Shown here: piece by piece, positions 9,478-35,977 of the stretch
Layout: every line of letters starts with the position of its first letter
How positions within the stretch are numbered: the first letter of the stretch is position 1
NCBI RefSeq assembly: GCF_014083985.1
Contig: NZ_CP046907.1
Location: 5,094,501 to 5,158,500 of the forward strand
Reading direction: 5' to 3'
DNA length: 64,000 nucleotides
Source: Streptomyces sp. SCUT-3
Lineage (GTDB): Bacteria > Actinomycetota > Actinomycetes > Streptomycetales > Streptomycetaceae
The notes under the pieces: generated by a model
The model's database searches: none
Seen by the model: the letters and a program-made list of their open reading frames with translations, nothing else
Told to the model about the DNA's origin: nothing
Program-made: the position numbers and the translations under genes

Positions 9478-9631
9478 CCGGTCCCCTTCCTCTTCCTCAC
9501 GAAGCGGCGGTCGGCCCCTACTGTACTGGGGCCCCGCCCGGCGGGGCGGTGCGACAGGCACGGGCCCGCCGGGCCCGCGGGGGTTCCGCGCGGGCCCCGG
9601 AGGACCGCCTCCGGGCCCCCGCAGGGAGACC

Positions 9632-27873: not shown

Positions 27874-28899
27874 TCAACCCTTCCTGACGGTGTCGAGGCC
27901 GCGCTCGACGAGGCCGGGGACCAGCGCGCCGATCCGGTCGAAGCCGGAGCCGACGGTCTGCCCCTTGGTGTAGCGGAGGTGGATGCCCTCCAGGATCACG
28001 GCGAGCTTGAAGCAGGCGAACGCCGTGTACCAGTTGATCCCCGAGACGTCGCGGCCGGAGCGTTCGGCGTAGCGCTCGATCAGCTCCTGCACGGCCGGGT
28101 GGCCGGGCGCGGCGCCGGTGTTGGCGACGGGGGAGTCGTCCCCGGCCGGGCGGTCGCTGTACATCACCAGCAGGCCCAGGTCGGTGAGCGGGTCGCCCAG
28201 GGTGGACATCTCCCAGTCCAGGATCGCCCTGATCCGGTCGCCGGAGTCCACCAGGACGTTGTCCAGGCGGTAGTCGCCGTGCACCACGGCCGGGGCCGGG
28301 GAGGCCGGCAGGCGGGCGCCCAGCTCGGCGTGCAGCTCGTCGATGCCGGCCAGCTCCCGGCTGCGCGACGCCTCCAGCTGCTTGCCCCAGCGGCGCAGCT
28401 GCCGCTCCAGGAAGCCCTCGGGGCGCCCGAAGTCCGCCAGGCCGACCTCGGCCGGGTCGACCGAGTGCAGGGCGGCGAGGGTGTCCACCAGCTCCAGGAC
28501 CACCGCGCGGGTGCGCTGCGGGCCGAGGGCGGACAGCTCCTTCGCCGTACGGTACGGGGTGCCCTCGACGAACTGCATCACGTAGAACGGCGCGCCCAGC
28601 ACCTCCTCGTCCTCGCACAGCAGGACCGGCTCGGGCACGGGCACGGAGGTCGGGTGCAGTGCGCTGATCACGCGGTGCTCCCGGGCCATGTCGTGCGCGG
28701 TGGCCAGCACGTGCCCCAGCGGGGGGCGGCGCACCACCCAGCGCCTCGTCCTGTCGGTGACGGCGTACGTCAGGTTGGACCTGCCGCCTTCGATCAGCTC
28801 GCCGGTCAGCTCTCCCGCCACCAGGCCCGGACGCTCACGGTCCAGGTAGGCGCGCAAGCGCTGCGGATCCAGCCCGGGCGGATTCTGCCCTGCACCCAT
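27874..28899 (-). CDS. Phosphotransferase family protein (ACAD10/11-type hydroxyacyl kinase)
   Basis: A 341-residue kinase of the aminoglycoside phosphotransferase/choline kinase fold. Brenner-type catalytic loop [13 protein letters not shown] and metal motif [17 protein letters not shown] are intact, and the N-lobe has [10 protein letters not shown] and the Lys/Arg strand RRWVVRRPP. The closest recognised relatives are the kinase domain of ACAD10/11 and LvaA, which phosphorylate 4-hydroxyacyl-CoAs so that a partner ACAD can eliminate phosphate. The ATG at 28899 follows ACGAGGAG. First gene of the operon, under the 28940 operator. Antibiotic resistance is unlikely. Confidence 0.9.
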
Positions 28900-28939
28900 C
28901 TACTGCTCCTCGTCACCGATGCTTCGGGTCGGAAGCCAT

Positions 28940-28959
28940 CATGCCGACCAGTCGGTATG
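28940..28959. promoter_or_regulatory. TetR-type operator CATGCCGACCAGTCGGTATG
   Basis: Matches the consensus at 19 of 20 positions, 41 bp upstream of the kinase start on the minus strand. Confidence 0.75.
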
Positions 28960-28980
28960 CAGTCCAGTGGAGGTGCTCAA

Positions 28981-29016
28981 CGGCACACCGCCGGGCCGGG
29001 GCCCGGCGGTGTGCCG
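28981..29016 (-). terminator. Stem-loop terminator after the first tandem paralogue
   Basis: A perfect 17-bp inverted repeat (28981-28997, 29000-29016) with a 2-nt apex, 7 bp beyond the stop codon of the gene at 29023. Confidence 0.7.
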
Positions 29017-29022
29017 CCGCGG

Positions 29023-31284
29023 TCACTTGCTCAGGTCGACCGCCGGAGCGACGGGCCCCTCCGACGAACCCGGGGCGGCGTCCCCGAGGCGCTCCTGCGC
29101 CCACTGCGCGACAGCCCCGACGCGCACGGCGGCGCCGGCGGACCACGCGAAGGGGCCGGGCAGCTCCTGGACGGGGACCAGCCTCCCGCCGGGCCCGCAC
29201 GGCAGGTGCAGCACCAGACGGGCGGTCGCGTTCGGGGCCGTGTTCAAGGAGGAGGCGCAGGCGGCGCACACCTGCACCGGCCTCTTCTCCCCCGAGGACG
29301 TCCCGGTCTTGCGGGAGCCCTGTGCGGAGCCGTGCAGCGGGTTGAGGCGGCAGGGCGTGTAACGCCGCTTCTTCTTCCCCTCGGATCCGTCGGCCCCGGC
29401 GGACCCCTTCGCCGTCAGCGCGGCCTTCCCCGCGTGGGCCAGGACGACCGCGCACACCAGCGCCACCGGGTCCGCCCCGCCGTTCCCGCCGCTCCCGCTT
29501 CCCCCGCGGGCCTCCAGCAGCGCGGTGGCGAGGCCGTGGTACCGCCGGGCGCGGGCCGCGGCCGGTTCCCCCTCCCCGGCACCCGCGGCCGCGTCCGCCC
29601 CCGGGCCGGCGGGACGCTCGGCCAGCAACCGTGCCAGGGCGGCCGTGCTCTTCCGGGCGGTGCGCCGCAGCAGCCCGGTGGTCGGCCGGTTGCGCGCGGA
29701 CGGGAAGGGGCCGCGCGCCGGGGCGCCCCGCAGCCAGTCGGCCACGAACAGCACACCGGCGACGACGCCGAGGAACGACACGGCCAGGAGCGGGCCGACG
29801 ACCGTCGCGCCGGGCGTGAGGTCCCCGGCGAACAGCGACTGGACGGCGTCCTCGTCCGCGGGGGCCAAGGGCGGGTCCGGGGCGTAGTACACCGAGGACT
29901 GCCCCCGCGGGGAGTCCTCGACGTACTGCAGCACCTCGTCCAGCACCCGGGCCAGGCCGTCGTCGCTCCCGGAGGAGCCGGGGCCGTCGAAGGAATCCGG
30001 CAGGTCGAAGGTGCCCAGCCCCGCGCGGTCGACCCCGAAGGGGACGATGTCGACCGTGCCGCTCCCGGTGTCGGCGACCACATAGACCGCGTCGCGGCCG
30101 ATGCGCCCGTGCAGGGAGTGGACGAGCACCTCCCCGTCGCCGGCGGACTCGTCGGCGTCCTGCATCGGCACCGCCGCGACGAGCACCGGCACGTCCATGC
30201 CCGCGATCCGCTCCCGCAGCCGGGCGCGGTCGCCGGGGGCGAGGGCCTCCGCGGTCTCGGGGTCCACGTACAGGGGCGAGCGCGCCAGGCCCTCGACGAC
30301 CCGCTCGACGCGGGCGCCCAGCTCGGCCCCGGTCGGCTGGGCGACGGGGCGCGGCGGCGGCGTGCCGAACACCGCCCAGCAGCCGGCCGTCACCGCCCCG
30401 GCCGTACTCGCGGCCGCGAGCAGCACCAGGCCGGTGCGCCGCCCGCTCCTGGGCCGCAGGGTCCCCCGGCGGCGGCGCACCAGCCGGACGGTCAGCAGCA
30501 CGGACAGCGGGACGCCGGTCGCCAGCGCACCGGTGAACAGGCTCCGGTCGTTCATCTCGTCGTCGGAGGGGTACATCCAATCCGGTTCCCAGCCGCGGGA
30601 CGCCTTCGCCTCGGCGGCCTCGGCGCGCTCCACGGCCCGGCCGGAGGCCAGAATCTCGACGAACCGCTGGAACAGCACCACCGGGCCCGCGTCGTGGGGG
30701 AGTTCGGTCTCGGCGGCACGCATGGCGGCCTCGGCCGCGAGCCCGTCCGGGCCGTCCGGCCCGCCCGCCCCGTGGACGCGGGCCTCGCCGCCGGACTCGG
30801 AGAGGCGGACGTAGAGGCCGTCCCGGCCGAGCCGGTCGTGCAGGTCGTCGAGGAAGCTCCCGCCCAGGGGGGCTCCGAGGCGGTCGGTGGCGGTGACGAC
30901 CACGTAGGTGGGCATCCCGGTGCGCTCCGCGGCCCGGGCGAGCAGCGGGGCCGCCGAGCGCGGCACCTCGCGCGGGACCTGGTCGCTGATCCAGACGGGG
31001 TTCTCGCGCAGGCCCTCGGCGATGTACGAGACGCTGTCGGTCGCCTCCGCCCCCGGAACCTTGCCCGCCCCGGGGGCCGTGTCCGTCTTGGACGCAGTGC
31101 CCGGGGCGGGAGTTGCCCCCGGCAGGGTTGTCGCCGCTTCCGCAGCCGTGCCCGGCCCCGGTCCGGGTCCGGCCGTGCCGGGGGACGCCCCCGGGGAGTC
31201 GCCGACCGCGGTCGCGCCCGGCAGGAGGGCCAGAGCCAGTGCGGCGGCCAGTACCGCCGCCGAGCGTCGCACCCGTATGAGCAT
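29023..31284 (-). CDS. Large membrane protein of unknown function, tandem paralogue A
   Basis: A 753-residue protein. Residues 1-27 are a signal peptide or anchor. The extracytoplasmic part contains a domain (about 87-200: YIAEGLRENPVWISDQVP...) that recurs after a membrane segment as a second copy (about 325-430: VVEGLARSPLYVDPETAEAL...ADESAGDGEVLVHSLHGRIGRDAVYVV). Membrane helices lie near 252, 283 and 497. The C-terminal cytoplasmic region has a zinc-ribbon-like set CRLNPLHG...CAAC. I do not recognise a named family. It is a tandem duplicate of the gene at 31513. TPM-like proteins share the general layout, but that is only a resemblance. Confidence 0.75.
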   Translation of the reverse strand: MLIRVRRSAAVLAAALALALLPGATAVGDSPGASPGTAGPGPGPGTAAEAATTLPGATPAPGTASKTDTAPGAGKVPGAEATDSVSYIAEGLRENPVWISDQVPREVPRSAAPLLARAAERTGMPTYVVVTATDRLGAPLGGSFLDDLHDRLGRDGLYVRLSESGGEARVHGAGGPDGPDGLAAEAAMRAAETELPHDAGPVVLFQRFVEILASGRAVERAEAAEAKASRGWEPDWMYPSDDEMNDRSLFTGALATGVPLSVLLTVRLVRRRRGTLRPRSGRRTGLVLLAAASTAGAVTAGCWAVFGTPPPRPVAQPTGAELGARVERVVEGLARSPLYVDPETAEALAPGDRARLRERIAGMDVPVLVAAVPMQDADESAGDGEVLVHSLHGRIGRDAVYVVADTGSGTVDIVPFGVDRAGLGTFDLPDSFDGPGSSGSDDGLARVLDEVLQYVEDSPRGQSSVYYAPDPPLAPADEDAVQSLFAGDLTPGATVVGPLLAVSFLGVVAGVLFVADWLRGAPARGPFPSARNRPTTGLLRRTARKSTAALARLLAERPAGPGADAAAGAGEGEPAAARARRYHGLATALLEARGGSGSGGNGGADPVALVCAVVLAHAGKAALTAKGSAGADGSEGKKKRRYTPCRLNPLHGSAQGSRKTGTSSGEKRPVQVCAACASSLNTAPNATARLVLHLPCGPGGRLVPVQELPGPFAWSAGAAVRVGAVAQWAQERLGDAAPGSSEGPVAPAVDLSK

Positions 31285-31330
31285 CCCCGTGCCCCGTCTC
31301 TCGTTCTCGTTCAGACATGTCTCCCTGCGG

Positions 31331-31351
31331 GAGCGCGGCCGACTCTACTGG
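31331..31351 (-). promoter_or_regulatory. Duplicated promoter block upstream of paralogue A
   Basis: A 21-bp block identical to 33758-33778 lies 47 bp upstream of the paralogue A start and 50 bp upstream of the paralogue B start. On the minus strand it contains TAGAGT, a plausible -10 hexamer. Between the genes there is also a 10-bp repeat GAGTCCGCCG in three copies (31416-31445). Confidence 0.5.
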
Positions 31352-31512
31352 CAAGGAGGACCGGGGAGTTCGGGGGCGGAAGGCGATTTCGCCCCAGGAA
31401 GCCCTCCGACGGCCTGAGTCCGCCGGAGTCCGCCGGAGTCCGCCGGAGCCGGCTCCCGGTCGGGGCGGCGGGCGTCACACCGCCGGACCGGGGCGGACCT
31501 TCTGCAGCCGCG

Positions 31513-33708
31513 TCACTTGTGCAGGTCGACCGCCGGAGCCCCGGGCTCCGCAGGGCTCGGCCCGGCGTCCCCGAGCCGCTCCTGCACCCACTGCGCGACG
31601 GCGTCGGGACGCACCGCGGAACCGGGCCACGTGAAGGGGCCGGGCACCTCCTGGTGCGGGACCAGTTCGCCTCGGGGGCCGAGCGGCAGGTGCAGCAGCA
31701 GGCGGGGGCCGTTCGCCGAAGCGGTCGCCGGGGAGGCGGCGCAGGCGGCGCACACCCGCGCCGAACGCCTGCTCCCCGAGGGCGTGGGGACCCTGAGGGA
31801 CTGGAGGGCGGGGCCGTGCAGCGGGTTGAGGCGGCACGGCTCGTACTGCGGTCGGGCTCCCGCGGAGCTCCCCGGGGCCTTCGCCCCCGCCTTTCCCGCA
31901 GCCCCCACGGCGACCCGCGGGTCCTCCTCCAGCACCGCCCGTCCCGCACGGGCCAGGACGGCCGCGCACAGCAGCTCCAGCGGGCCGTCCCCGCCGTCCC
32001 CGCCGTCCCCGCCGTCCCCGCGGGACGGCTCCAGCAGTTCGGTTGCGAGGCGGTGGAAGTGCCGGGCGCGGACCGCGGCGGCGTCGCCCTCCTCGTCGCC
32101 CGCACCCCGGCCCACCGCGCGGCCGTCCAAGAGTTCGGACAGGAGCGCGGCCTCCCGCCGGGCGGTGCGCCGCAGCAGCCCGGTGGACGGCCGGTTGCGT
32201 GCGTACGGGAGGGGGCCGGGCGTCGCGGTGCGGTGCTGCAGGCGGTCGAAGGAGGCCAGTGCGCCGGCGACGAGGCCCATCCCCAGCAGCGCGGCGGCCG
32301 GGCCCGTGAACATCGCTCCGGCCCAGAAGTCACCGGCGAACAGCGACGGCAGGGCGTCCTCGTCGGCCGGTGCCGGGGGCAGTTCCGGCGGCAGGGGCGG
32401 GCCGGGCCGCCCCTGCGGGGTGGTCCCGATGTACCGGAGCACCTCGTCCAGCGTTCCGGCCAGGTCGGTGTCCTCCCCGTAGGAGCCGAGTCCGCGGGCG
32501 ACGGCGGGCAGGTAGTAGGACTCCAGTCCCGCGCGGTCGACCCCGAAGGAGGCGATGTCGACCGTGCCGCTCGCGGTGTCGGCGACCACGTGGACCGCGT
32601 CGCGGCCGATGCGCCCGTGCAGGGAGTGGGCGAGCACCTCCCCGTCGCCGGCGGACTCGTCGGCGTCCTGCATCGGCACCGCCGCGACGAGCACCGGCAC
32701 GTCCATGCCCGCGATCCGCTCCCGCAGCCGGGCGCGGTCGCCGGGGGCGAGGGCCTCCGCGGTCTCGGGGTCCACGTACAGCGGGGAGCGCTCCAGGCCC
32801 TCGACGACCCGCTCGACGCGCGCGGCCATCTCGGGGCCGGTCGGCTGGGCGACGGGGCGCGGCGGCACCGTGCCGAGCAGCAGCCAGCAGCCGGCCGCCA
32901 CCGCCCCGCCCGCGCCCGCGGTCCCGAGCACCACCAGGACGGCGCGCCGCCTGCTCGCGGGCCGCTCGGTGCCCCGGCGGCGGCGCACCAGGGCCGTGGT
33001 CGTCAGGACGAGCAGGGGCAGGCCGGTCACCAGCGTGCCGGTGACGGCGCCCCGGTTCTCCATGTCCGTTACGGAGGGGTGGAGACGGTCCGGGGTGTCG
33101 TGCCCGGCGACCCTCGCGCCGGCGGTCCCCGCGCGCTCCTCCGCCCGGCCGGAGGCGAGGATCTCCGTGAACCGGTCGAACTCCAGCACCGGTCCCGCGT
33201 CGTAGGGCAGTTCGAGATCGGCGAGGAGCATGGCCCGTTCGGCGACGGCGTCGGTGAGGTCGGCGGTGCCGTGGACGCGGACCGCGCCGGTGGCGGCGTC
33301 CTTGTCGTAGTGGACGTACAGCCCGTCCCGGCCCGTCCGCTCGTGCAACTCGTCGAGGAGTTCCACGCCCGCCGGGCCCGGCGGGCCCTCCGCGGCGGTC
33401 ACGACCACGTAGGTGGGCACCCCGGTGCGCTCCGCGGCACGCTCGAACAGCCGGGCCGCGGAACGGGGCACGTCCCGGGGGATCTGGTCGCTGATCCAGA
33501 CGGGGTTCTCGCGCAGGCCCTCGGCGATGTACGAGGCGCTGTCGGCGGGCTCCGCCCCGGCGGCCGTGTCCGGAGACGCGCCGCTCCCGGTGCCGGCCGT
33601 GCCGGGGGGCCTTCCGGGGGAGTCGCCGGCCGCGGTGGCCCCCGGCAGGAGGGCGAGAGCCAGCGCGGCGGCCAGTGCTGCGGCCGGACGCCGTATTCGT
33701 GTGCGCAC
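31513..33708 (-). CDS. Large membrane protein of unknown function, tandem paralogue B
   Basis: A 731-residue paralogue of the product of 29023-31284 with the same order: signal peptide (LAAALALALLPGATA), domain copy 1 (YIAEGLRENPVWISDQIPRD), membrane helices, domain copy 2 (VVEGLERSPLYVDPETAEAL), membrane helices, Ala/Gly-rich cytoplasmic region, and zinc-ribbon-like CRLNPLHG...CAAC. The two genes diverge in many places, yet 151 bp in domain copy 2 are identical (32631-32781 and 30123-30273), which suggests gene conversion. A low-complexity GDGGDGGDGGDG run lies near residue 575. Function unknown. Confidence 0.75.
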   Translation of the reverse strand: MRTRIRRPAAALAAALALALLPGATAAGDSPGRPPGTAGTGSGASPDTAAGAEPADSASYIAEGLRENPVWISDQIPRDVPRSAARLFERAAERTGVPTYVVVTAAEGPPGPAGVELLDELHERTGRDGLYVHYDKDAATGAVRVHGTADLTDAVAERAMLLADLELPYDAGPVLEFDRFTEILASGRAEERAGTAGARVAGHDTPDRLHPSVTDMENRGAVTGTLVTGLPLLVLTTTALVRRRRGTERPASRRRAVLVVLGTAGAGGAVAAGCWLLLGTVPPRPVAQPTGPEMAARVERVVEGLERSPLYVDPETAEALAPGDRARLRERIAGMDVPVLVAAVPMQDADESAGDGEVLAHSLHGRIGRDAVHVVADTASGTVDIASFGVDRAGLESYYLPAVARGLGSYGEDTDLAGTLDEVLRYIGTTPQGRPGPPLPPELPPAPADEDALPSLFAGDFWAGAMFTGPAAALLGMGLVAGALASFDRLQHRTATPGPLPYARNRPSTGLLRRTARREAALLSELLDGRAVGRGAGDEEGDAAAVRARHFHRLATELLEPSRGDGGDGGDGGDGPLELLCAAVLARAGRAVLEEDPRVAVGAAGKAGAKAPGSSAGARPQYEPCRLNPLHGPALQSLRVPTPSGSRRSARVCAACAASPATASANGPRLLLHLPLGPRGELVPHQEVPGPFTWPGSAVRPDAVAQWVQERLGDAGPSPAEPGAPAVDLHK

Positions 33709-33837
33709 CCCTGTGCCCCGTTTCCCGTTCGACGCGCTCCTCCCCGGGACCCCCGGAGAGCGCGGCCGACTCTACTGGTGGGCGTGGCCGGAGCGGAACG
33801 CCGTACCGCAGGGCCGTCGGGCGGGGCCCGCGCGGGG

Positions 33838-34359
33838 TCAGCTGCCGGAGGGGGCGGGCAGGGCGGCCAGGGCCCGGTCCGTGACCTCCCCGGCATCGCC
33901 CTCGACGCCGACGACCGCCCCGCGCTCGTCCGCGCCGAGCGGTTCGAGGGCGTCGAACTGCGACCGCAGCAGGGAGGGGGGCATGAAGTGCCCCTCGCGG
34001 CGGGCCACGCGCCCGGCGATCAGGTCGAAGTCGCCGTCCAGGTGCAGGAAGAACAGGCCGGGGGCGTTCTCGCGGAGCCGGTCGCGGTAGCGGCGCGCGA
34101 GCGCCGAGCAGGAGACCACGCCTCCCCGGGAGCCGCGGTCGCGGGCCCAGGCGGCGATCGCGTCCAGCCAGGGGCGGCGGTCCTCGTCGTCGAGGGGGAC
34201 GCCGGCCGACATCTTGGCGATGTTGGCCGGCGGGTGGAAGTCGTCGGCCTCCGCGTAGGGGACGCCGAGCCGGTCGGCGAGCAGGCCGCCGACGGTCGTC
34301 TTGCCCGAACCGGAGACCCCCATCACCACGACCACCGGAGGGTGCTGATCCGCCGCCAC
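33838..34359 (-). CDS. gntK: Gluconokinase
   Basis: A 173-residue P-loop kinase that phosphorylates D-gluconate to 6-phosphogluconate (pentose phosphate/Entner-Doudoroff entry). Walker A VMGVSGSGKTTVG, the family signature DDFHPPANIAKMSAGVPLDDEDRRPWL and the lid region CSALARRYRDRLR are all present, and the length is normal. GTG at 34359 is used, with GGGAAGG 13 nt upstream. It is not next to a gluconate permease here. S. coelicolor has gluconokinase in a similar chromosomal position, from memory. Confidence 0.93.
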   Translation of the reverse strand: MAADQHPPVVVVMGVSGSGKTTVGGLLADRLGVPYAEADDFHPPANIAKMSAGVPLDDEDRRPWLDAIAAWARDRGSRGGVVSCSALARRYRDRLRENAPGLFFLHLDGDFDLIAGRVARREGHFMPPSLLRSQFDALEPLGADERGAVVGVEGDAGEVTDRALAALPAPSGS

Positions 34360-34430
34360 GCGCTGCCACCGCCTTCCCGCTCCACCGCTGCCGGACCGGT
34401 GAACGGTACCCGACGCGCCCCGGCGGGGGA

Positions 34431-34475
34431 TCGGGGACGTCCGGGCCGGGGACGTCCGGTCCGGGGACGTCCGGG
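34431..34475. repeat. 15-bp tandem repeat, three copies
   Basis: Units of CCGGGGACGTCCGGG (first begins T, second ends T) at 34431-34445, 34446-34460 and 34461-34475, in the divergent gap between gluconokinase and the oxidoreductase. Each contains the palindrome GGACGTCC, so it could bind a regulator. Confidence 0.8.
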
Positions 34476-34591
34476 CCGGGAACGGCGTCGGGGTGCGGTT
34501 TGGAATAGCGTCGGGAGGTCAGGCGAGCCCGGGGCACCCCGGCGCCCGCACCCGAACGCACCCGACCGCACCACGTTGAGGAGACGCACCC

Positions 34592-35518
34592 GTGAAGGCT
34601 GTCGCATACCGCGCCTACGGCGGACCCGAGGTCCTGGAGTACACCGACCTGCCCGAGCCGAAGGTCGGCCCCGACAAGGTCCTGGTCCGGGTCCGCGCCG
34701 CCGCCGTCAACCCGGTGGACTGGAAGGTCCAGGCCGGCTACCTCGACGCGGTGATGGACGTGCAGTTCCCCGTCGTCCCCGGCTGGGACGTCTCCGGCAC
34801 GGTGGTCCGCGCGGGAGCGGACGCGCACGAGTTCTCCGAGGGCGACGAGGTGATCGGCTACGTCCGCCAGGACTGGGTGTCCAACGGCACCTTCGCCGAG
34901 TACGTGGCGGCCCCCGTGCGCACGCTCGCGAAGAAGCCGGCGAACCTCTCCTTCGAGCAGGCCGCGGGCCTGCCGCTGACCGGCCTGACCGCCTACCAGA
35001 GCCTGGTGCACGCCCTGCGGCTCGGCAAGGGGGAGACGCTCGTCGTGCACGCCGCGGCCGGCGGTGTCGGCTCGATGGCCGTGCAGATCGCCCGGCACCT
35101 GGGCGCCCGGGTCATCGGCACCGCGAGCGAGCGCAACCACGACTACCTGCGCTCCCTGGGCGCCGAGCCCGTCACCTACGGGGAGGGGCTGGCCGACCGG
35201 ATCCGGTCCCTGGCGCCCGACGGGGTGGACGCGATGTTCGACGCGGTCGGCGGCGGAGTGGTCGAGGAGACCGCCGGCGTCATGGCCGCCGGCGGCAGGA
35301 CGGTGTCCATCGCCGACATGGGCGTCACCGAACTGGGCGGCCGCTACCTGTTCGTCCGCCCCGACCCGGCCGACCTCGCCGCGCTGAGCGACCTCGCCGA
35401 GCGGGGCGAGCTGACCGTCGAGGTCGCCGAGACCTTCCCGCTGGAGCGCGCGGCCGACGCGCAGCGGCTCAGCGCCGAGGGGCACACCCGCGGCAAGATC
35501 GTCGTCACGGTCGCCTGA
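34592..35518 (+). CDS. NADP-dependent oxidoreductase (quinone oxidoreductase family)
   Basis: A 308-residue zinc-free medium-chain reductase. GroES-like N-domain (AAAVNPVDWKVQAGY, VVPGWDVSGTV), then cofactor motif LVVHAAAGGVGSMAVQIARHLG near residue 148, and C-terminal AADAQRLSAEGHTRGKIVV typical of the family. It reduces quinones or enones with NADPH. GTG 34592 follows TTGAGGAG. Divergent from gluconokinase across 230 bp with a tandem repeat. No pathway partner is adjacent. Confidence 0.92.
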   Translation: MKAVAYRAYGGPEVLEYTDLPEPKVGPDKVLVRVRAAAVNPVDWKVQAGYLDAVMDVQFPVVPGWDVSGTVVRAGADAHEFSEGDEVIGYVRQDWVSNGTFAEYVAAPVRTLAKKPANLSFEQAAGLPLTGLTAYQSLVHALRLGKGETLVVHAAAGGVGSMAVQIARHLGARVIGTASERNHDYLRSLGAEPVTYGEGLADRIRSLAPDGVDAMFDAVGGGVVEETAGVMAAGGRTVSIADMGVTELGGRYLFVRPDPADLAALSDLAERGELTVEVAETFPLERAADAQRLSAEGHTRGKIVVTVA

Positions 35519-35596
35519 CGTCCGGGGCCCGTGCCGGAGGGCGGGCGTGCGCGGAAGGGCCCGGCGGTGCGGGACGGCCGCCGCCGGGCCGAGCCT

Positions 35597-35658
35597 CGGA
35601 ACAGGGCCACGGAACAAGGCCCCGGAGCAGGGTCCCGGAGCAGGGCCTCAGAACAGGG
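35597..35658. repeat. Degenerate 13-14-bp tandem repeat
   Basis: About five imperfect units of the type CGGAACAGGGCC run from the intergenic space into the last codons of the DUF202 gene on the minus strand. Between convergent genes. Confidence 0.6.
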
Positions 35659-35977
35659 CGGTGACGGCGCCCACCGCCGCCAGCGCCACCGTGCAGACGG
35701 TCACCGCCGCCGCCGTCCGCGGCGACATCGCCGCGGGCCGGGCCGGGGCGACTTCCCGCACCCTGCGCTGTGTCACGGCGAAGAACACCGCCCACACCAG
35801 GGTCACGGCGGCGATCACGGCCACCTCCTCCGGTACGGGCCGGCCCCCGGCCAGCGCCTGCCGGACGGCCAGGAGGGCCACCACGCCGCAGGACAGCACG
35901 GTGCGCCGCCAGGCCAGGTGGGTCCGCTCCGGCTGCCGCGCCGGGTCGCGCTCGTCGGGGCCGGCGCCGGAACTCAC
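35648..35977 (-). CDS. DUF202 domain-containing membrane protein (second of pair)
   Basis: A 109-residue membrane protein with the DUF202 signature PERTHLAWRRTVLSCGVVAL and three hydrophobic helices. The GTG start at 35977 overlaps the TGA of the preceding gene (GTGA), so translation is coupled. The paired occurrence of one longer and one shorter DUF202 protein is common in actinomycetes and suggests a heteromeric membrane complex; the function is unknown. Confidence 0.85.
   Translation of the reverse strand: MSSGAGPDERDPARQPERTHLAWRRTVLSCGVVALLAVRQALAGGRPVPEEVAVIAAVTLVWAVFFAVTQRRVREVAPARPAAMSPRTAAAVTVCTVALAAVGAVTALF

Follow-up and report, generated by a model that had tools for sequence, protein, structure and literature searches.

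Results

Two tandem paralogous genes and their anatomy

We have analyzed two neighboring genes, A and B, on the minus strand of a 64,000-nucleotide stretch of DNA from Streptomyces sp. SCUT-3 (the window). An earlier note, made from the letters alone, had described them as tandem paralogous membrane proteins, and the coordinates and reading frames are confirmed (Table 1). Both frames are open, the genes are separated by 228 bp, and the products share 60% identity over 769 alignment columns. A and B are the only copies of this long gene in the 6.08-Mb single-contig genome; there is no third. An antisense open frame of 2561 aa (window 27979-35664, plus strand) spans both genes, and most likely reflects extreme G+C codon bias rather than a gene.

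Table 1. Features of the A/B locus, numbered from the first nucleotide of the window
Feature	Position	Strand	Description
Gene A	29023..31284	-	753 aa, ATG start; paralogue of B with the same architecture
Gene B	31513..33708	-	731 aa, GTG start; predicted order: signal peptide, D1, TM hairpin, D2, TM, then a helical and zinc-ribbon-like tail in the cytosol
B domain D1	33133..33555	-	residues about 52-192; predicted TPM fold
B domain D2	32413..32847	-	residues about 288-432; second copy, by hhalign against D1; contains DESAGDGE
A domain D1	30628..31050	-	residues about 79-219; by alignment to B
A domain D2	29905..30339	-	residues about 316-460; by alignment to B
B TM1-TM2 hairpin	32875..33072	-	residues about 213-278; short Arg-rich loop, predicted cytosolic
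B TM3	32227..32328	-	residues about 461-494
B zinc-ribbon-like motif	31741..31836	-	residues 625-656; C-x5-H ... C-x2-C
A zinc-ribbon-like motif	29257..29352	-	residues 645-676
21-bp block upstream of B	33758..33778	-	CCAGTAGAGTCGGCCGCGCTC; core AGTAGAGT, -10-like
21-bp block upstream of A	31331..31351	-	identical to that upstream of B
Gene-conversion tract in B	32528..32866	-	339 nt with 14 mismatches against A; covers residues about 281-394 and so most of D2
Matching gene-conversion tract in A	30020..30358	-	

Hydropathy and charge suggest the same topology for both proteins: after a signal peptide, D1 lies outside, TM1 and TM2 flank an Arg-rich loop on the inside, D2 is again outside, and TM3 leads to a basic tail in the cytosol. 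B was also modeled with AlphaFold2 from an alignment of B with 56 further rows (A and 55 relatives), giving a mean pLDDT of 82.3 and pTM of 0.66. Helices and strands follow an identical order in D1 and D2 of the model. The extracytoplasmic placement of the repeated domain, as first proposed, is upheld as a prediction.

The comparison of D1 and D2 profiles by hhalign gave E = 3.7e-17, and at this level of comparison the internal repeat is beyond chance; the reversed controls, which covered only comparisons with profile S of the related one-domain proteins, gave E = 0.12 and 0.11. The earlier note had gone further, placing two copies of the pattern GLxxxPxYxD...DESAGDGE...GRDAVYVV in each protein. 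The repetition is real, but the full pattern does not occur twice. DESAGDGE is found once per protein, in D2 (position 378 in A, 350 in B), and GRDAVYVV occurs once in A, the corresponding sequence in B being GRDAVHVV. The D1 version reads GLRENPVWISD...GRDGLYV, and D1 is a diverged copy.

The tails of both proteins contain the expected CRLNPLHG and CAAC elements. The residues C625, H631, C653 and C656 of B are invariant in 57/57 aligned long proteins, and four invariant Cys/His ligands in two knuckles, as in a zinc ribbon, are present in the long proteins and in the short relatives described below. The tails of A and B probably bind zinc, judged from this conservation.

Searches for a named family

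The view that the proteins belong to no named family has held: there is no match to a characterized family over the whole protein. Pfam searches of A and B at E up to 10 returned no family, and NCBIfam searches at the same level none at its cut-off, with a single sub-threshold match to a TM region. Membership of SepX/GlpR was rejected, since NF050099 scored 17.5 bits against a curated cut-off of 150. Among the relatives at E up to 1, the most recurrent Pfam family reached at most 3/57 long and 4/41 short proteins, and the most recurrent NCBIfam model, a sorting anchor, at most 5/41 short proteins. NCBIfam matches to a 77-residue piece of the core member (see below) were noise (E = 0.11 and 0.46), sequence searches of the PDB gave noise only, and a guessed DNA motif for the tail found no match. 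Our literature search, covering little subscription content, found no paper on this family.

The fold of the repeated domain

Does the repeated domain have a recognizable structure? The model answers this in a way that the earlier note had missed, for a known fold, TPM, emerges for D1. Photosystem II repair is the setting in which TPM proteins are best known. D1 of B aligned best with BA41 (5anp_B; VIA-align Z = 11.2, 127 residues aligned, rmsd 2.7), followed by 2kpt, 7tbr, 2kw7, 8c7i (Psb32), 3ptj and 3pvh (TLP18.3) at Z = 8.7 to 10.2. We take 2kpt and 2kw7 to be TPM proteins; Cg2496 and PG_0361 presumably carry the TPM label too. An accessory subunit of the mycobacterial supercomplex (6adq_J, 8hcr_J, 6hwh_O, 8ovc_a) came at Z = 7.1 to 8.4 in this list and in that of the short protein, and in the list for D1 the first entries belonging to neither group appeared at Z = 6.3. 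Foldseek gave a best E of 0.19 for B, at a probability of 0.99.

The short relatives gave a similar result. The model of a short protein (mean pLDDT 83.5, pTM 0.48) contains a domain that aligned with 5anp_B at Z = 11.6 (rmsd 2.8, 125 residues aligned) and with 3ptj at Z = 11.3; the first 14 entries comprised TPM proteins, the four entries of the supercomplex subunit, and LMTP1. With Foldseek E was 0.03. The two fold lists are populated by D1 of the long protein and the TPM domain of the short one. D1, D2 and the short domain are all homologous to one another (hhalign E = 1.3e-15 to 9.5e-20), as are the long and short tails (E = 3.4e-18), with reversed controls for the long-short comparisons at E = 0.066 to 0.12. 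D1 and the short domain thus appear to adopt the TPM fold, an assignment made at the level of fold from the models, and D2 appears to share it through its homology to D1.

The TPM family profile PF04536 was seen in 3/57 long members, below significance (best E = 0.074), was absent from the 17 Pfam families listed for 41 short proteins, and was not found in 5 further members. It matched proteins in 13 of the 31 genomes searched; SCUT-3 itself had no match, and 1 of the 18 further genomes from its family had one. When two small sets of Pfam-TPM proteins were compared by hhalign, 5 of 6 runs were null and one gave E = 8.6e-5 at a probability of 60%; this test is weak because the two TPM sets fail to match each other.

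A one-domain partner gene in most relatives

With B alone as query, relatives were found in 9/41 genomes including its own, and none in a scan of the contigs of named species. Scanning an alignment of the long relatives against such contigs gave 88 relatives, of which 80 were kept. These loci lie in Streptomyces, Kitasatospora, Streptantibioticus, Actinacidiphila and one actinomycete metagenome-assembled genome, nearly all Streptomycetaceae. In most of them the long gene is followed by a short paralogue encoding a single domain, one TM segment and a tail of the same type. Cys, His, Cys and Cys are invariant in 41/41 aligned short proteins; in one-domain members with a Gly-rich tail the last ligand position is Asp (CAAD).

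The start of the short gene overlaps the stop of the long gene by 11 or 14 nt in 51/53 pairs. In 46 pairs, five of which have an additional start candidate further upstream, the short frame has an ATG or GTG 10 nt ahead of the final base of the long stop codon; in another 5 the distance is 13 nt. The two exceptions are one locus (L072) with no start candidate and one (L088) with a masked stretch. An overlap of 11 nt is found again in L149, from a distant actinomycete family. The overlaps make a good case for one translational unit and, by extension, for one complex: the two genes are apparently translationally coupled, and their products probably assemble together. In L149 (2-7504) the long-short pair adjoins two Ser/Thr protein kinase genes.

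Among 75 loci with more than 1.5 kb downstream, 50 have both zinc-ribbon-like tail and short gene, 15 the tail only, 9 neither, and one a short gene without the tail; in this count L006 is misassigned (it has a short gene), a stretch of L088 is masked and the frame of L089 is broken. Tailed proteins with no short gene number 16, A and B included, and the long-short pair is therefore not obligate.

Some long proteins end after TM3 (L054, L060-L064, L067, L091 and L093). On a tree of 76 sequences (L023, L039, the second copy of L080, L088, L089 and L090 were left out first, and one more was removed by a length filter) the tail changes state three times. None of the 8 tail-less loci with more than 1.5 kb downstream has an adjacent short gene (L067, the ninth, falls outside this count). 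The association of tail loss with partner loss is not significant (3 independent pairs, median p = 0.5). The pattern fits a tail that serves the long-short pair, although three events prove nothing.

Paralogues in tandem were also seen elsewhere. In Streptomyces sp. XM4193 (L080, 8149-16540) the whole long-short pair has seemingly been duplicated in tandem, and runs of family paralogues in two distant loci (L147, 5877-11105; L148, 5770-8417) show that tandem duplication is recurrent.

Across the Streptomycetaceae the long gene has no conserved context. In Streptomyces it is linked, in parts of the set, to genes for a weakly SAF-like protein, a T2SSF protein, a glycosyltransferase/deacetylase and a radical SAM protein. 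We rejected an assignment of function from these neighbors, since the linked families are found in only parts of the set.

Distribution in actinomycetes

A profile built from eight one-domain members matched 16 of 17 chosen Streptomycetaceae genomes, 15 at full length and one (G008) in the tail only; G002 gave no match. Six of these 17 genomes had supplied sequences to the profile; among the other 11, 10 match. Across the class 18/50 genomes match (15/47 outside the Streptomycetaceae), of which four (G053, G066, G071, G079) match in the tail only. By profile matching, the family is widespread in actinomycetes, well beyond this genome.

The core member, a one-domain gene, lies near a biotin carboxylase (acyl-CoA carboxylase) gene in 4/4 distant loci (L147, the reference, L150, L151 and L152), and genes for dihydrolipoyl dehydrogenase and purine nucleoside phosphorylase are close by in 3/4. 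None of these three genes was found in four core loci of Streptomycetaceae.

The upstream block

A shared 21-bp block with a possible -10 element had been noted before A and B. The block is identical at the two genes, lying 46 to 49 bp before each start, and no other match with 3 or fewer mismatches occurs in the genome (a reversed-block control gave 1). The proposal that the duplication took in the promoter block agrees with this identity. The -10 element gains support from the relatives, where the core AGTANAGT is present upstream of the long gene in 38/78 loci, the other 40 lacking it; the window itself has no clear match to a -35 element. In these loci there are 43 copies in 1.43 Mb on the same strand, 5 of them elsewhere, and the number expected upstream is 0.1; we quote no probability, since the loci are related and a Poisson value would treat them as independent. 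GTTTCGC stands about 17 bp upstream of TANAGT at 9/30 non-redundant sites, the window included. A further AGTACAGT occurs in the window at 9527 on the minus strand. A variant element, GGTA(A/G)AGTGACCGGCCG, was spotted by eye upstream of the long gene in L066, L068 and L095, which belong to a group lacking AGTANAGT.

The 80 loci contain 12 copies of the palindrome TTTCGC-N4-GCGAA, all of them upstream of the long gene; no TTTCGC or TTCGC palindrome was seen beside the two blocks of the window. In one group of Streptomyces a small lipoprotein family (VKRRxLPVAAAL...LTACG...KIAGAD) is encoded near the long gene (L047 at 13141, L024 at 17415, and others). TTCGC-N4-GCGAA lies within 110 bp upstream of 22/28 of these nearby lipoprotein genes, which were found by motif, and it is possibly an operator shared by one regulator. 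WhiJ/XRE regulation was rejected as the source of the palindrome: the WhiJ9 sites given in PMC10294661 are direct repeats CGXXCTCAAC and differ from it, and a word search of PMC6262351 turned up no such motif.

What sets this genome apart

A and B group together on the tree as closest relatives (SH-aLRT 100), and the 12 best-scoring relatives of each share 33 to 38% identity with it by BLAST. An unusual feature of the locus, overlooked at first, is that the one-domain partner gene present in most relatives is absent; no short gene adjoins A or B. Searching the genome with the short-family profile returned A, B, the core member (one domain with a Gly-rich tail, C1:5614563-5615789) and weak matches, and no partner gene. 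Two of the weak matches fall in a frame of 311 residues, near C1:4615548-4616039 (L123, L124), consisting of the helical and zinc-ribbon-like module only (CFYNPLHG...CARC; hhalign E = 4.3e-13 to the short tail), with no TPM domain. We infer that the short gene has been lost in this lineage.

Within D2 the genes share a tract of 96% identity, against 76% for A and B overall (Table 1). Its segment score is 241, compared with 79 for the best of 2000 codon shuffles, and the high identity bears the mark of recent gene conversion. Between the two genes dN = 0.29 and dS = 0.30. As dN is about equal to dS, constraint on each copy is not demonstrated, and the ratio is uninformative since dS is unreliable at this G+C content.

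Discussion

We suggest, with a probability of about 0.45, that A and B act as a membrane-spanning scaffold or chaperone for a complex of the cell envelope. Two TPM-fold domains would lie outside, held by three TM anchors, with the helical and C-H-C-C zinc-ribbon-like module in the cytosol. The TPM domains would bind a client membrane-protein complex on the outside, and the zinc-ribbon modules would bind each other or a cytosolic partner on the inside. The unit in most relatives is an operon of long two-domain and short one-domain, one-TM proteins, which probably form one complex. In SCUT-3, where the long gene is doubled and has no short gene beside it, A may instead pair with B.

The role of TPM proteins, as enzymes or as assembly factors, is disputed. 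PMC11237479 names two hypotheses, a phosphatase and a function in complex assembly, and supports the second, a chaperone-like part in the assembly of membrane-linked complexes. The Lipocone paper (PMC12419801) deems the phosphatase claim unlikely. Taken with the lack of an invariant acidic residue in D1, these sources favor a scaffold or chaperone, with a sensor next.

As a sensor, the protein would detect an envelope signal through its TPM domains and relay it through the zinc-ribbon module to a cytosolic regulator or kinase. The topology of one to three TM segments with separate outside and inside modules would suit such a role, as would the upstream element kept in part of the family, the palindrome core common to nearby lipoprotein genes in one Streptomyces group, and the two Ser/Thr kinase genes beside the distant long-short pair. 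However, those kinases occur in one of six distant stretches, where only ten neighbors were scanned, no regulator is linked among the neighbors scanned, and the tail-less group persists with no cytosolic module at all. We consider this role unlikely.

If instead the TPM domains hydrolyzed a phosphorylated substrate outside the membrane, as a secreted phosphatase or NTPase, one might look to the acidic residues. D2 keeps D313 invariant and E351 nearly so, and the short domain D86, with D49 and E124 nearly invariant; D1 has no invariant acid in 57 sequences, though D123 comes close. Titles in the reference lists of PMC13089150 and PMC11237479 refer to TLP18.3 as an acid phosphatase and to a cold-adapted TPM domain as an ATPase/ADPase. 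Given D1 and the verdict of the Lipocone paper, such hydrolysis seems distinctly improbable.

A narrower form of the assembly hypothesis would make the proteins assembly or accessory factors of the respiratory bcc:aa3 supercomplex in particular. The mycobacterial accessory subunit is among the best fold matches, and PMC11237479 cites a proposed TPM role in the assembly of respiratory complex III. The likeness is in fold only and ranks below the canonical TPM proteins, and a respiratory-complex subunit was found in 0 of roughly 22 neighbors scanned with Pfam, many of which matched no family; we regard this as very improbable. We give as little credence to A and B being redundant, drifting duplicates with no distinct function in this lineage, as dN close to dS and the missing partner might suggest, for both frames are intact over 2.2 kb, the CHCC residues, 21-bp block and topology are kept in both, and the D2 tract has been held alike through gene conversion.

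Returning to the scaffold or chaperone, we put forward a broader proposal with somewhat more hesitation: that these genes belong to an undescribed, class-wide actinomycete system in which paired TPM-fold proteins outside are coupled, via zinc-ribbon modules inside, to the assembly of envelope complexes or to signaling. The one-domain core member, which adjoins genes for acyl-CoA carboxylase and dihydrolipoyl dehydrogenase, would be an old part of it, and the two-domain pairs, tail losses and partner losses would be lineage-specific. The family extends the predicted fold to non-photosynthetic actinomycetes, where it stands in a transmembrane architecture that is new, joined to a zinc-ribbon-like module and accompanied by a coupled partner gene; tractable Streptomyces strains would permit testing of the disputed TPM role.

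Comparison with known systems places the family closest to the TPM proteins (PF04536: TLP18.3, Psb32, BA41/BA42, Rhom172_1776, Cg2496, PG_0361 and YdjH). D1 and the domain of the short protein have the same predicted fold as those proteins, and the extracytoplasmic location common to them is predicted for the A/B family. Psb32 consists of a single TPM domain with a TM segment, as does the TPM and membrane portion of the short protein. A and B differ from TPM proteins in their tandem TPM domains, their cytosolic helical and CHCC module and their lack of a Pfam profile match, and the family differs in its coupled long-short gene pair. SepX/GlpR (NF050099), of which they are not members, matches weakly in the TM region (B residues 185-286, E = 0.0031). 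The accessory subunit of the mycobacterial III2IV2 supercomplex shares the TPM-like fold, but at 142-145 residues its chain is too short to hold tandem domains and a tail of the A/B type.
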